The notes under the pieces were generated by a model. That model made no database searches, was not told where the DNA came from, and saw nothing but the letters and a program-made list of their open reading frames with translations. A program made the translations under genes and the position numbers. A stretch of 52,824 bases of DNA from a virus: the IMG/VR virus record IMGVR_UViG_3300046665_000755, positions 1-52,824 of that record. One strand, written 5' to 3'. Of this stretch, positions 3,785-52,555 are shown one piece after another; position 1 is the stretch's first letter, and each line of letters opens with the position of its first letter.

Positions 3785-4378
3785 CTATGCGGCGCATGAA
3801 GTGCTGCCACGTTGCGCTTTGGGGTAGTCGATGCCGTGAGCGGTGATGATCCGCTCGAAGGCCTTGTTGCCGATCGCCAGCCTCCCGCAGCACTGGCGCC
3901 GGGTGATGCCCAGTTCCAGGAAGGCGCGAATCCGCTCGGCGTACTTCGCGTCGCGGGCCTGAACCTGTTCGCTTCGAACTGCGCCGTTGGCGCCGCCCCG
4001 GGTTGGCTTCTTGAAGGTGATGCCGTACTCCTTCGAGAAGCTGTAGAGGGTGCGCCGGCTCAGGCCCAAGGCAACCGATGCTTCCGTTTGCGTGTGCGTG
4101 GCTCCCAGTTCCCGAATACGCTCGGCAAGCTCGTCACGTTCCTGCTGGCGTATATCTTTTGAGTGCAGGGGCAGGGGAGCCGCTTCAACCCGCCGCCGAA
4201 CAAACGGCTTCGGCGTCGGCGGCATCTGGTTGCTGTAGGTGATGGGTTTGGGCTTGTAGCCGATGGGCGCCGCTTCTTCGATCTGGCCGCCGCTGGCCAG
4301 GAACTGGGCGACCTGGGCCGCCAGTTCATCCGAGGCCGGGCGAAGCGCCTCGACCAGGCTGAGGTGGTTGCTAATCAT
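3785..4378 (-). CDS. Helix-turn-helix protein of the left early operon
   Basis: A 197-residue protein starting at ATG 4378, which overlaps the stop of the exonuclease gene as ATGA and implies translational coupling. The frame is open further upstream, but that would run inside the exonuclease gene. Two helix-turn-helix-like segments are visible: about residues 94-117 (HTQTEASVALGLSRRTLYSF) and about 149-175 (LELGITRRQCCGRLAIGN). The N-terminal third is Pro-rich and probably flexible. It could be a transcription regulator or a DNA-binding partner of the recombination proteins. The specific role is unknown. Confidence 0.7.
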   Translation of the reverse strand: MISNHLSLVEALRPASDELAAQVAQFLASGGQIEEAAPIGYKPKPITYSNQMPPTPKPFVRRRVEAAPLPLHSKDIRQQERDELAERIRELGATHTQTEASVALGLSRRTLYSFSKEYGITFKKPTRGGANGAVRSEQVQARDAKYAERIRAFLELGITRRQCCGRLAIGNKAFERIITAHGIDYPKAQRGSTSCAA

Positions 4379-4992
4379 GCTGCGATCCCCAGGACCTGGT
4401 TCATGCGCTCGTCGAGGATTTCGTAGAAGGTCTTCACACGCTCGGTAAGCTTGCGGATCATCGCTTCGTCCCGGTAGGCGCGCTTGATGAACAGAGGCAT
4501 GCCTGGCCAGTAGCAAACGAAGTCGATCCACTCACGCTCGGAGACCCACAAGCCGCCTTGGCACTGAGCGACGTGCTCCTTTGGGATCTCGCCGGACAGG
4601 ATCACTTCAACCTGAAACTTCGGCAGCTTGGTTTTGATCTCGGTCAGGCCTTTGGGCCCGACCAGCGAGTCTGGCGAGTAGCCGGCGCCGTGGTTGAGGA
4701 TGATTGCAACCTGGTTCGTTTCAACCTCTTCGCGATCCTCGTAGAGCTTCCGGGCAACGCCTTCAAGCTCATGGCCGCGCTCGGTGTGGCGGTTGCCTTG
4801 GAAGGGGTCAGCAGCCTCGCCGGTGATGCGCTCGCCGATCAAGGTATTCATGTAGGTGAAAGCACCGGCGCCGAATCCTGCCTCACCTTTGCCGTTAACC
4901 AGCAGGCACTCCAGTTCGGAGCAGGTGACGATACCCAGGCGCAGTGCCAGCCACTCAGGTGAGCCCTGCTGTATTTCAGTGATGATCTGCAT
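4375..4992 (-). CDS. YqaJ-family viral recombinase/exonuclease
   Basis: A 205-residue protein with the lambda-exonuclease (PD-(D/E)xK) fold signature: GSPEWLALRLGIVT at the N-terminus, ERGHELE at 71-77, Asp108 in YSPDSLVG and Glu118-x-Lys120 in LTEIKTK. These are the metal-binding catalytic residues of YqaJ/RedExo nucleases, which degrade one strand 5'-3' from duplex ends. GGAG lies before ATG 4992. It is directly downstream of the ERF gene, making a Red-like exonuclease/annealase pair for phage recombination. Confidence 0.93.
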   Translation of the reverse strand: MQIITEIQQGSPEWLALRLGIVTCSELECLLVNGKGEAGFGAGAFTYMNTLIGERITGEAADPFQGNRHTERGHELEGVARKLYEDREEVETNQVAIILNHGAGYSPDSLVGPKGLTEIKTKLPKFQVEVILSGEIPKEHVAQCQGGLWVSEREWIDFVCYWPGMPLFIKRAYRDEAMIRKLTERVKTFYEILDERMNQVLGIAA

Positions 4993-9680: not shown

Positions 9681-9696
9681 CTGTATGAATATACAG
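9681..9696. promoter_or_regulatory. LexA (SOS) box upstream of the DUF1654 gene
   Basis: CTGTATGAATATACAG matches the CTG-N10-CAG LexA consensus, with an AT-rich centre. It lies 21 bases upstream of ATG 9718 and probably overlaps the promoter -10 (TATACA), so the gene should be derepressed by DNA damage. Confidence 0.85.
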
Positions 9697-49137: not shown

Positions 49138-49563
49138 ATGCCGATCACCGAAACCCGAGGGGTACGCAACCGCAACCCCGGAAACATCGATTACGTTCCA
49201 GCCAACCAATGGCAGGGGCAGCTTAAGCCCGACACGGCCATCGAGAAGCGCTTTGCCCGGTTCGATACGCCGGAGAACGGTATCCGCGCCCTGGGCAAGT
49301 TGCTGCTGACCTACCAGCGCAAGCACGGGCTCAAGACGGTGAAGGCGATCATCAGCCGATGGGCACCGTCCGTGGAGAACGACACCGCCGCCTATGTACG
49401 CGCCGTCGAGGCGAACATCGGCACCCAGCCCGGCGCTGAGATTGATCTGGCCCAGGCTCCGGTAATGGCCGGTTTCGTCAAGGCGATCATTCATCACGAG
49501 AACGCTGGCTATGCCTACCCTGAAGCGGTGCTGGCCGAAGGCGTGCGGCGGGCGCTGGCATGA
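49138..49563 (+). CDS. Endolysin (P5-like lysozyme-fold protein)
   Basis: A 141-residue protein. TRGVRNRNPGNIDYVPANQWQGQL, then RFARFDTPENGIRALGKLLLTYQRKHGLKTVKAIISRWAPSVENDT, matches the phage family often annotated as structural protein P5 or lysozyme-like muralytic protein. Its place before Rz/Rz1 makes it the endolysin that cleaves peptidoglycan. There is no signal peptide, so it needs a holin. Overlaps Rz by four bases. Confidence 0.85.
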   Translation: MPITETRGVRNRNPGNIDYVPANQWQGQLKPDTAIEKRFARFDTPENGIRALGKLLLTYQRKHGLKTVKAIISRWAPSVENDTAAYVRAVEANIGTQPGAEIDLAQAPVMAGFVKAIIHHENAGYAYPEAVLAEGVRRALA

Positions 49564-50078
49564 CGTCGGTGCAGAAGCTGGCCTTGGTTCTGCTGGCCAT
49601 AGCCGTGGGCTTCGGCGCTGCCTGGCAGGTGCAGGACTGGCGGTATGACGGGAAGCTGGCAAAGCAGGCGGGACAGTTCCAGACGGACCTTGACGCGATC
49701 GGCAGTGCCGCTACCGCCCAGGCCCGCGCCGAGCAGGACAAGCGCCTGGCCACCGAGCAGCAACTGGCCGCTGCCGATCAAAAACACACCAAGGAATTAT
49801 CCGATGCCCAGCGCAACCAGGCTCTGCTGCGTGACCGCCTTGCTACTGCTGATGTGCGGCTGTCAGTCCTTCTCGACGCCACGGATTCAGCCAGTGGCAG
49901 CGACGTGCCTACCACCCCCGGCGCCGTCGGCGTGGTTCATGCAGCCCGTCGAGCCCAACTTGACCCAGCGCATGCTCAAAGAATTGTCGCCATAACCGAC
50001 GACGGGGATAACGCAGTGATAGCTTTACGGGCGTGCCAGGCTTATATCAGGGCTGTTTCAAGTGACTATCCATTTTGA
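49560..50078 (+). CDS. Rz-like inner-membrane spanin
   Basis: A 172-residue protein. An N-terminal transmembrane anchor (about 6-22, LALVLLAIAVGFGAAWQVQ) and a periplasmic coiled coil (about 30-95) with LRDRLATADVRLSVLLD fit i-spanins. It joins the Rz1 lipoprotein to fuse inner and outer membranes at the end of lysis. Rz1 is encoded within it in another frame. The 3' end overlaps the convergent DUF2806 gene. Confidence 0.9.
   Translation: MTSVQKLALVLLAIAVGFGAAWQVQDWRYDGKLAKQAGQFQTDLDAIGSAATAQARAEQDKRLATEQQLAAADQKHTKELSDAQRNQALLRDRLATADVRLSVLLDATDSASGSDVPTTPGAVGVVHAARRAQLDPAHAQRIVAITDDGDNAVIALRACQAYIRAVSSDYPF
49804..49995 (+). CDS. Rz1-like outer-membrane spanin lipoprotein, nested in Rz
   Basis: A 63-residue protein in the +1 frame of Rz. 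ATG 49804 has AAGGA upstream. The signal peptide ATRLCCVTALLLLMCGC ends with a relaxed lipobox (MCGC), then a Pro-rich mature part (CLPPPAPSAWFMQP). An embedded, Pro-rich lipoprotein inside Rz is the lambda arrangement. Confidence 0.88.
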   Translation: MPSATRLCCVTALLLLMCGCQSFSTPRIQPVAATCLPPPAPSAWFMQPVEPNLTQRMLKELSP

Positions 50079-51103
50079 TTAGGATAATCTTGCATGTTGA
50101 GGAGTTCGATTTGGTCGTTGGGGTGATCAATGTAGTTACCAAACTCTACTCCATATCCCATGCTGGATATATTTTTATAAAATTGGGTGAAGTAATTTAG
50201 GTTGGGTAAGTGATGGCCTAAACGTAGTACTTCTTGTCCTATACTTGTGAGTGTCATTGCTTTTAATTCTACGTTTGTATTTGGATTTGGGCCTTTAGCA
50301 AGCACAACTTTTCCATGAAGGGTGAACGTTTTTACGAATTTCTCAGTGCTTGAGCTTTTAAATATGATGGAGGTAGCGTCTGTTTCAACCCCTTGAAGTA
50401 ATCCAAGTTCTTGTAGCTTTAGCAGTTGTTTGTATGGGACGCCTTCGTCCTCTAGTAATTGTATGTTTCTCCATATGACTCTAGAGTAAAAAGCAAATGG
50501 TGCGATTAGCTGGATGAGTTCTGCTTCTTTTTTTGATAGCCCTTTTAAGAACTCAAGAGTTCTAAGTGAAAAAGTTCCGGGGCTCTTGAACTCTCCGGCA
50601 AGGATGCTTCCCCAGAGTTTCTGAATGTCCTCATTACTGGTTTTGCATGCGTAATCGCGCCAAGATCGTAGCCAATCATCTTCCACTTCTTCCATGGGGG
50701 GAGCCTGATTGTCTTCTGCAAGCTTAACCTCAGCATAAATAATCGATTTGCTCAGATTTATTTCTTCTTGAATTCTCTCTGCTCGATCCCTGTTGAAGAA
50801 AAAATCAGAGGCTACGCTCAATGTGGGCTCTATTCGCTTTTCAATTAGTCGAATATCTAACTTGTCTTGAACGTCATGGGAGAGCGAAATTAATGATCCG
50901 TCTGTTGAGTATCGCTTTCGACCCGCACGAACATCCGCGACGTCAGCTTCTGCTTGGGCAAGCATCAAAAGCTCATGACGACGACCGTCAACATTTGCGC
51001 GACTCTCGCGTCGGGTCTGCCAAGGTTTTAAAAGCGATCCAATCCCCTTTTCTGTGAGAGTTACCCACATCTGGCACAGCAGCTTTTCCCCAGGAGCATC
51101 CAT
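50066..51103 (-). CDS. DUF2806 family protein, AT-rich accessory gene
   Basis: A 345-residue protein. N-terminal EKGIGSLLKPWQTRRESRANVDGRRHELLMLAQAEADV, a middle with RAERIQEEINLSKSIIYAEVKL, then WGSILAGEFKSPGTFSLRTLEFLKGLSKKEAELI, the DUF2806 signature. No membrane segment. The codons are AT-rich, very unlike the neighbours, and the gene opposes the lysis cassette, so it was probably acquired recently. It would be expressed in the lysogen; a phage-defence or exclusion role is possible but unproven. Confidence 0.86.
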   Translation of the reverse strand: MDAPGEKLLCQMWVTLTEKGIGSLLKPWQTRRESRANVDGRRHELLMLAQAEADVADVRAGRKRYSTDGSLISLSHDVQDKLDIRLIEKRIEPTLSVASDFFFNRDRAERIQEEINLSKSIIYAEVKLAEDNQAPPMEEVEDDWLRSWRDYACKTSNEDIQKLWGSILAGEFKSPGTFSLRTLEFLKGLSKKEAELIQLIAPFAFYSRVIWRNIQLLEDEGVPYKQLLKLQELGLLQGVETDATSIIFKSSSTEKFVKTFTLHGKVVLAKGPNPNTNVELKAMTLTSIGQEVLRLGHHLPNLNYFTQFYKNISSMGYGVEFGNYIDHPNDQIELLNMQDYPNQNG

Positions 51104-51193
51104 TTAGGCGTTCTCGTCCGTCGAAGAAGTTTGAATGATAGATTATCAAAGGAACGAGGGCTGCGCCTGAGATAAAGTTTTGGATTGGAAGTT

Positions 51194-51880
51194 TCAGTTT
51201 GAGGCAAGGGGCCGTATAAGGCCTTTCCCTTCGTTTCGCACACTCCCCACGGCCGTATCGACCTTGAACCATTCAAAGGCCTCGGCCGGTTCGCCCTGGT
51301 GCAGCACCATCTGTTCTGCGCGCTCCTTGGGCGTGGCTGGGTCCAACCATTCCCGGGCCAGGTCCGGCGTCAGCACCACGGGCCGCCGGTCGTGGATGTC
51401 CACCATTCCGCCGGCGCTGTCGGCGGTGATGATCACGAAGCCGTCATGCTCGCCTGGGCCTTCGTCGCTGTCGGGCAGTTGGCCAATGGCGGCGCATAGC
51501 ACCGGCGCGCCGTCCCGCCGCCGGATCAGATAGGGCTGCTTCTTCGGTCCGCCTTCGTCCACCCACTCAAACCAGTTGTCGATGGGCGTGATTGCCCTGT
51601 GCAGCCAGATCGCGCGGAAGAACGGGCCGTGGGCCACCTTCTCGACGCGGGCATTGATCGGTGCAGCGCGATCCTTGGCCCAGTGCGGGCGCCATCCCCA
51701 TCGCACCAGGTCGGCGTGCAGCAGATCACCCTGCAGGTGGAGCAGGGCGACTTGGGTTGTCGGGGCGACGTTGTAGCGCTCAAGCGGCAATTCACCGACG
51801 GAGTTCGCCAAGGCATTGGGCATGCTCAGCGCTGCAACGAAGTCGTGAATGCCGCTGTACTGGGAAAGTCTTCCACACAT
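51194..51880 (-). CDS. SRAP-domain protein (YedK/HMCES-like)
   Basis: A 228-residue protein with all SRAP active-site features: Cys2 at the mature N-terminus (MCGR), Asn37 in ERYNVAP, Glu105 in DNWFEWV and His163 in MVDIHDRRPVVL, plus RWGWRP and NARVEKV DNA-binding loops. These proteins crosslink to abasic sites in single-stranded DNA and shield them. A phage copy could protect replicating or damaged phage DNA during SOS. No LexA box lies immediately upstream. Confidence 0.94.
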   Translation of the reverse strand: MCGRLSQYSGIHDFVAALSMPNALANSVGELPLERYNVAPTTQVALLHLQGDLLHADLVRWGWRPHWAKDRAAPINARVEKVAHGPFFRAIWLHRAITPIDNWFEWVDEGGPKKQPYLIRRRDGAPVLCAAIGQLPDSDEGPGEHDGFVIITADSAGGMVDIHDRRPVVLTPDLAREWLDPATPKERAEQMVLHQGEPAEAFEWFKVDTAVGSVRNEGKGLIRPLASN

Positions 51881-51963: not shown

Positions 51964-52173
51964 ATGGCGATCAACATCGAGCAAATCAGCGCAATGGAGG
52001 CGTGGTTTGCGCTGCGCAAAGATCCGGACTTCATCGCGGCCGCTCCGGAAGAACGATACGAATCGCGCCTGGCGCTGGCTGACGACATGAAGGAGCGCGG
52101 CGTGATCGACAGCGGAGAGTGGCGCGAGCTGGTTGAAGAGGCGGTCGCCGCGTACGGCGACGAGTTAGGCTGA
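51964..52173 (+). CDS. Small acidic hypothetical protein
   Basis: A 69-residue helical acidic protein (IEQISAMEAWFALRKDPDFIAAAPEERYESRLALADDMKERG). ATG 51964 was chosen over a start at 51946; no strong ribosome-binding site is seen. It converges on the gene at 52165 with a nine-base overlap. Function unknown. Confidence 0.62.
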   Translation: MAINIEQISAMEAWFALRKDPDFIAAAPEERYESRLALADDMKERGVIDSGEWRELVEEAVAAYGDELG

Positions 52174-52521
52174 GGTTTCTTTCAGGCTCTTGAGCTCGGC
52201 CAGCAGCCTCTGGTTCTCCCTGAGCAGGTAATCGCGCTGCCCGATAACCAGATCGATGGGTCTAAAGTTCACATTGGCAGGTTCTTTGTCGCTCATGGTT
52301 GAAACGCGCTCAAGGGCTTGCCTGAGGGCAGCTTCAGCTGATGCCTTTTCGGTGGCGAGCAGGTCATTCATCTTCACCAAGCCGGATATGTTTGCCCGCG
52401 CTTTGCTGAGTTGCACCTGCAGTTCGGCTACCTCGTCCTCGATCATCGAGCAGTGGTGTTTGTACATTTCCAGGGGCGTAGGGCATCCAAGCCACTCGCA
52501 AGTGTCTTCATCGATGTACAT
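52165..52521 (-). CDS. Coiled-coil protein with a LexA box upstream
   Basis: A 118-residue protein from ATG 52521. The N-terminus is acidic (YIDEDTCEWLGCPTPLEMYKHHCSMIEDEV) and the rest is coiled coil (about 30-110). A perfect-looking LexA box lies 18 bases upstream (52540-52555), so it should be induced by DNA damage. A TTG start at 52536 is less likely. Function unknown. Confidence 0.72.
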   Translation of the reverse strand: MYIDEDTCEWLGCPTPLEMYKHHCSMIEDEVAELQVQLSKARANISGLVKMNDLLATEKASAEAALRQALERVSTMSDKEPANVNFRPIDLVIGQRDYLLRENQRLLAELKSLKETSA

Positions 52522-52539
52522 GGGGTGCGCTTCCAAATG

Positions 52540-52555
52540 CTGTATGTGTATACAG
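52540..52555. promoter_or_regulatory. LexA (SOS) box
   Basis: CTGTATGTGTATACAG fits CTG-N10-CAG and closely resembles the box at 9681-9696. It lies upstream of the coiled-coil gene at 52521 on the minus strand. Confidence 0.85.

Follow-up and report, generated by a model that had tools for sequence, protein, structure and literature searches.

Results

A foreign gene faces the lysis genes

Behind the lysis cassette of a lambda-like phage lies an intact gene for a protein of the DUF2806 family (PF10987), which meets the gene for the Rz spanin tail to tail, overlapping its 3' end by 13 bp, and which has the gene for an SOS response associated peptidase (SRAP) upstream of it on the same strand. 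The window, by which we mean the whole stretch of DNA that was analysed, a virus record of 52,824 bases, has genes that include replication protein O, a terminase, a lambda-type tape measure and a tail tip protein, and because of this gene set and the nearest named relatives we assign it, on sequence, to a lambda-like phage or prophage from Pseudomonas or a closely related genus. The features of the locus are the following.

49138..49563, plus strand: endolysin (phrog_873, 3.4e-59)
49560..50078, plus strand: Rz-type spanin (phrog_2466, 1.1e-55)
50061..51196, no strand: approximate extent of the acquired segment; the DNA beyond it aligns with empty-site relatives (L085, L086, L092)
50066..51103, minus strand: DUF2806 gene, the moron itself; ATG start, 345 aa, intact, PF10987 match, low GC
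50204..50641, minus strand: part aligning with Abi-alpha, residues 155-300 (profile-profile comparison with PF14337)
50210..50539, minus strand: likely winged-helix domain, residues 189-298 (models; weak structural matches)
50927..51088, minus strand: predicted long N-terminal helix, residues 6-59 (model; conservation; hydropathy)
51104..51193, minus strand: 90-bp interval from the SRAP stop to the DUF2806 start, with the imperfect palindrome TTTGAATGATAGATTATCAAA (plus strand)
51194..51880, minus strand: SRAP, right border of the slot (PF02586, 3.7e-47)
52540..52555, plus strand: LexA-box-like palindrome CTGTATGTGTATACAG, in front of the minus-strand ORF 52165-52536

An earlier, sequence-only reading of this DNA had pointed to an AT-rich DUF2806 gene at 50066-51103 that faces the lysis genes, and this description holds: the ORF matches PF10987 over residues 104-307 (E 2.9e-27, 96.4 bits against a cut-off of 24.5), its GC is 0.430 between flanks of 0.64, and endolysin and Rz lie on the opposite strand. 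The same reading had called the codon use strikingly unlike that of all neighbours, which is borne out for GC and is too strong for codon choice itself. Among 59 long ORFs of the window, chosen mechanically for the comparison of composition, the gene has the lowest GC3 (0.393, against a mean of 0.665, sd 0.081, in the other 58), while its codon fit is the second lowest, the lowest belonging to a 115-aa ORF that is probably spurious. The dip in GC, to 0.40-0.48, is limited to about 50000-51250, and the last residues in common with empty-site relatives are residue 167 of Rz and residue 228 of SRAP, the last 5 codons of Rz deriving from the acquired segment. Within Rz, a second frame (49645-49995, plus strand) has an end rich in cysteine and proline. 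This frame is probably a nested Rz1.

The palindrome TTTGAATGATAGATTATCAAA, which precedes the DUF2806 gene, is a possible operator. No sigma-70 consensus promoter was found in the 90-bp gap, hits in the region being at about the level of shuffled sequence; no terminator-like site was found on the minus strand between SRAP and DUF2806, and the DNA fold of the gap is unremarkable (z -1.44). Besides CTGTATGTGTATACAG, a second perfect LexA-like palindrome, CTGTATGAATATACAG, lies at 9681-9696; with the loose pattern used, two matches in the window were also reached by 15 of 100 shuffles and are thus not beyond chance. Elsewhere, both on the minus strand, the window encodes a phage-borne NA37 nucleoid-associated protein (1797-2882; PF04245, 2.8e-86) and, at 3788-4531, a protein with a SutA-type RNA-polymerase-binding motif (4.3e-7, barely above the Pfam cut-off).

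The Rz-SRAP junction is a slot for exchangeable cargo

Relatives of the junction were sampled from viral contigs through the best 80 SRAP relatives and the best 80 Rz relatives (best 80 of 574 and best 80 of 588 in the two scans), a sample that is biased to close relatives. Rz and SRAP were convergent in 79 of the 164 loci tested, and merging of identical junction regions left 63 distinct junctions, the window included. Eleven of the 62 other sites are empty, with an Rz-SRAP overlap of 2-5 bp; in 13 a short gap of 157-207 bp is all that separates the two genes, and 38 carry different cargo. Across the 39 filled junctions (window included) the inserts measure 316-3066 bases, with a GC at least 0.10 below that of the flanks in 22. 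The commonest cargo is an adenine methylase, one family of which fills 16 of the 39 (PF02086 in the one member scanned), and the remainder are mostly singletons. Several AT-rich cargos of this Pseudomonas slot face Rz as DUF2806 does; the methylase does not. The annotated phage PseuP_222 has a methylase at the Rz-SRAP place, and VW-6S has a gene annotated DarA behind Rz. One cargo (L041), a DUF2971 protein, matches the PADLOC candidate PDC-S31 at 8.7e-32; a PADLOC scan of seven others (L007, L048, L053, L075 with DUF6236, L102, L113 and L163) gave no match.

A DUF2806 profile that does find the window had no match in 160 relative loci, and in the empty-site relative L005/L085 identity to the window's genes is 91% for Rz and 95% for SRAP. 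Since sites in relatives are empty or otherwise filled and DUF2806 occurs at 0 of 160 relative loci, the gene is almost certainly an acquired moron in a variable slot, as had been proposed; comparison of the locus among relatives showed no conservation of the gene at this site. The proposal that it forms a protection locus with SRAP and SOS-controlled genes fared differently: SRAP flanks any cargo and empty sites alike, and the LexA-box-like site at 52540-52555 precedes another ORF. SRAP is a fixed neighbour of the slot and, because it also borders empty sites, was discounted as a functional partner of DUF2806. In the literature searched, including the available parts of PMC12724215 and PMC13182921, we found neither a description of the Rz-SRAP slot nor an experiment on any of its genes.

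The window protein belongs to a distinct DUF2806 clade

Beyond PF10987, the window protein scores 87.3 bits with TIGR03899, an NCBIfam hypothetical equivalog, which is below the cut-off of 155.65, and PADLOC and PHROG scans gave no match. HTH_11 was rejected as an identity, its match being weak and below cut-off (E 0.02). Judged by sequence searches, close relatives are rare: a direct search of viral and genome contigs with the window protein found none, a two-sequence profile found four relatives in viral contigs and seven in genome contigs at 24-44% identity, and whole-genome draws, each counting the genome used as its centre, gave matches at E of at most 0.001 from 6 of 369, 3 of 295 and 15 of 392 genomes. 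A tree of 26 proteins places the window protein in a 14-member clade with support of 100/99; the tree is midpoint-rooted, has several long branches and does not fix the nearest neighbour of the window protein inside the clade. Its members are the window's gene, one from a Paraburkholderia plasmid, and others from phages and from chromosomes of three phyla. Compared with DUF2806/PF10987 at large, it is a separate, well-supported group with an extra N-terminal part: an alignment of 12 sequences (A4), 11 of them inside the clade, has in common, with few departures, an N-terminal KPWQ motif and the block WG..LAGE...PG..S.RT. The former, around LLKPWQxRRE, occupies residues 24-33 of the N-terminal helix, and the latter, the most conserved block, residues 164-182.

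In the predicted structure (mean pLDDT 80.8) a helical middle lies between a long helix at the N-terminus and a C-terminal part that resembles a winged helix. The N-terminal helix is amphipathic, with its largest moment, 0.53, at residue 13, and no transmembrane stretch was found in the protein (largest 19-residue Kyte-Doolittle mean 0.97). Residues 189-298, with predicted helices at 191-203, 214-219 and 224-233 and strands at 245-285, likely form a winged-helix domain, winged-helix proteins recurring among the weak structural matches of this part of the model (Z up to 3.7). A search of solved structures with the whole protein and with the C-terminal domain returned no significant relative; the one strong viral structural match, A0A291AUV8 (E 1.9e-12, 229 aa), is probably the DUF2806 protein of phi3LM21, as suggested by the equal length (229 aa).

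The C-terminal half is distantly related to Abi-alpha

Abi-alpha is EF2833 of prophage 6 of Enterococcus faecalis V583 and belongs to PF14337, formerly DUF4393 (PMC6356687). According to the available parts of that 2019 paper, it does not impair adsorption, infective centres fall to about 10%, and lysis of infected cells is advanced by about ten minutes (PMC6356687). The likeness of DUF2806 to Abi-alpha is itself already in print, as one sentence on PF10987 in the same paper, whose available parts take it no further (PMC6356687). In the literature searched, PF10987 was met with only there and DUF2806 by name only in two papers on mcr plasmids, and no experiment on any DUF2806 protein was found. 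The earlier statement that DUF2806 proteins have no established function is therefore correct for the family by name, yet overlooks a relative with a known phenotype.

This relation was examined with a DUF2806 profile of 25 proteins (A6), which left out L170 and L213-L220 and also L196, L207 and L212 (internal stop in frame), and with an Abi-alpha profile built from seven of nine loci (L227 and L229 left out) that came from a draw of 340 genomes, eight of them with a match. Aligned by hhalign, the 25 and the seven proteins reached a probability of 90.5 and a score of 52.8 over 141 columns, against at most 18.3 for 60 column shuffles, at most 16.9 for reversed profiles and 9.4-14.5 for unrelated families (Rz, SRAP, methylase). 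The score was 41.6 with the window's side of the family alone and 30.7 with the window protein alone. A direct match to PF14337 was present in six of the 25 DUF2806 proteins, at best 9.6e-7, and a PF14337 scan of the window protein gave no match up to E 5. By these profile comparisons, the C-terminal half of DUF2806 is distantly related to Abi-alpha; as the alignment covers this half only, the two could share a fold without sharing a mode of action. A solved relative of Abi-alpha, 3H35, was found by the Abi-alpha profile at 4.2e-21, not by the DUF2806 profile, and is absent from the structural matches listed for the whole DUF2806 model and for its C-terminal domain.

Relatives lie in an anti-phage hotspot and elsewhere

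Two clade members, from Buttiauxella (L182) and E. coli (L230, 36% identical to the window protein), lie in P2-like prophages between the portal gene gpQ with Ogr and the replication gene A. This gpQ-gpA place is described, in the available parts of the source, as an anti-phage hotspot at which old, tin and further systems stop phages (PMC9122126). The P2-borne gene was present in 2 of 5426 E. coli genomes; another relative (L204) also sits within a P2-like element, with a GPO gene beyond. The clade member L176 adjoins RloB-like and ATPase genes (PADLOC AbiLii at 4.9e-25 and AbiLi at 8.1e-73), with an RmrA-like gene on its other side, while L173 adjoins an integrase, L172 a phage regulator, and L174 a protein that matches a TIR effector, with a repressor not far off. 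Around four chromosomal relatives (L177, L178, L180 and L181) no mobile element or defence gene was noticed nearby by eye. Outside the 14-member clade, a DUF2806 gene of a different lineage and another phage group (L209:932-2475; the genome is from the family of the Janthinobacterium genome G004) also sits behind endolysin and Rz in the tail-to-tail orientation and shares 76 bp with Rz.

An IncX4 plasmid (L171:3845-7059) carries a DUF2806 gene beside an ISEc69/mcr-2.1 insertion, and its neighbours suggested no function. A DUF2806 gene is reported, in the available part of the source, to be disrupted by mcr-1.1-pap2 (PMC8221240), so such plasmids live without it.

Discussion

We consider it likely, from the analysis as a whole, that the DUF2806 gene itself protects the host, and give roughly even chances to the more specific reading that it is a one-gene abortive-infection moron which, like Abi-alpha, shields its lysogen against other phages. 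The gene would have been acquired horizontally into a slot in which the Pseudomonas-type prophages of this group carry interchangeable cargo; its protein would be made in the lysogen, stay silent until another phage infects, and then end the infection early, probably via premature lysis or cell death. We infer that DUF2806 acts on phages at all, and premature lysis is part of that inference; the winged-helix half may sense or bind something, and the amphipathic N-terminal helix may work at the membrane. The analysis itself shows a gene of foreign composition at a site that in relatives is empty or filled otherwise, a distant kinship with Abi-alpha, and members of the subfamily in an anti-phage hotspot. 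The strongest counterpoints are that the homology is limited to the C-terminal half and that the literature searched held no DUF2806 experiment. Further points against abortive infection are that the window protein gave no match of its own to PF14337, PADLOC or PHROG, that the DUF2806 profile missed 3H35, that this reading leaves the subfamily's particular N-terminal half unexplained, that the P2-borne gene is so scarce in E. coli, and that several chromosomal relatives have no defence neighbours.

Like Abi-alpha (272 aa), the window gene is a single prophage gene of similar size, and both have a patchy distribution on prophages and islands; what sets the window protein apart is a conserved KPWQ helix of its own at the N-terminus and its origin in a phage of Gram-negative bacteria. 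The Rz-SRAP slot in turn resembles the P2 gpQ-gpA place of old and tin in offering exchangeable single or few genes a fixed place in a temperate phage, and members of the window's own subfamily occupy that hotspot itself; it differs in lying behind Rz in a lambda-like Pseudomonas-type prophage.

Several other readings were weighed. It seems unlikely to us that the protein is a winged-helix regulator that binds DNA and alters host or prophage expression, a lysogenic conversion without phage defence. PadR, MarR, LmrR, DtxR/IdeR and CodY do recur among the structural matches of residues 189-298, and there is the weak HTH_11 match below cut-off, but every Z in the match lists is 4.4 or lower, the best Foldseek PDB E is 0.19, and conservation is concentrated in the KPWQ motif near the N-terminus and in the LAGE-PG block instead of a recognition helix; the same match lists also contain plant and CED-4 immune or death proteins that have winged helices. 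We think it quite unlikely that the N-terminal helix acts at the inner membrane and blocks DNA entry without cell death: its amphipathicity, its conserved motif and the prophage location would suit such superinfection exclusion, against which stand the missing transmembrane stretch, the relatives on plasmids and chromosomes, and Abi-alpha itself, which by the available account does not block adsorption and whose infected cells die (PMC6356687).

The chance that the gene is a mere passenger, of no benefit to phage or host and kept by chance after a recent insertion, also appears slim. Its single occurrence at the site among 160 relative loci and the window and the lack of a sigma-70-like promoter upstream would fit; against this, 345 codons have stayed open, the gene has kept the motifs that the family shares across three bacterial phyla, and the spread of the subfamily over unrelated phages, plasmids and chromosomes suggests repeated selection. 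Very improbable is an SOS-linked protection unit of DUF2806, SRAP and the neighbouring, LexA-controlled ORF. DUF2806 does lie on the SRAP strand, across 90 bp with no terminator-like site between them, and there is the palindrome at 52540; however, the sample was built in such a way that SRAP borders each of its 63 distinct junctions, empty ones as well as those that hold unrelated genes, and the LexA-like sites are within chance.

An extension of the abortive-infection reading takes DUF2806 as a large, mainly Gram-negative branch of an Abi-alpha superfamily of one-gene abortive-infection proteins and its tail-to-tail position against Rz as a switch; that both are true we regard as unlikely. 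In the lysogen the gene would be transcribed and guard the cell, and on prophage induction late transcription through endolysin and Rz would run head-on into DUF2806 and silence it, so that the phage would be spared an abortion of its own lytic cycle. In favour of such a switch, the distant DUF2806 lineages of the window and of L209 have both reached the same place behind endolysin and Rz, and several AT-rich cargos of the Pseudomonas slot, though not the methylase, have this orientation too.

In the literature searched, we found no account of the KPWQ clade, of its occurrence in the P2 hotspot or of the Rz-SRAP slot. The comparison gives the DUF2806 gene a named relative whose phenotype is known and makes it a candidate for defence, and the 38 other filled versions of the Rz-SRAP junction of lambda-like Pseudomonas-type prophages constitute a short list of further candidates. 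If DUF2806 does abort infection, a family carried by IncX4 plasmids and P2-like coliphages would gain a function.
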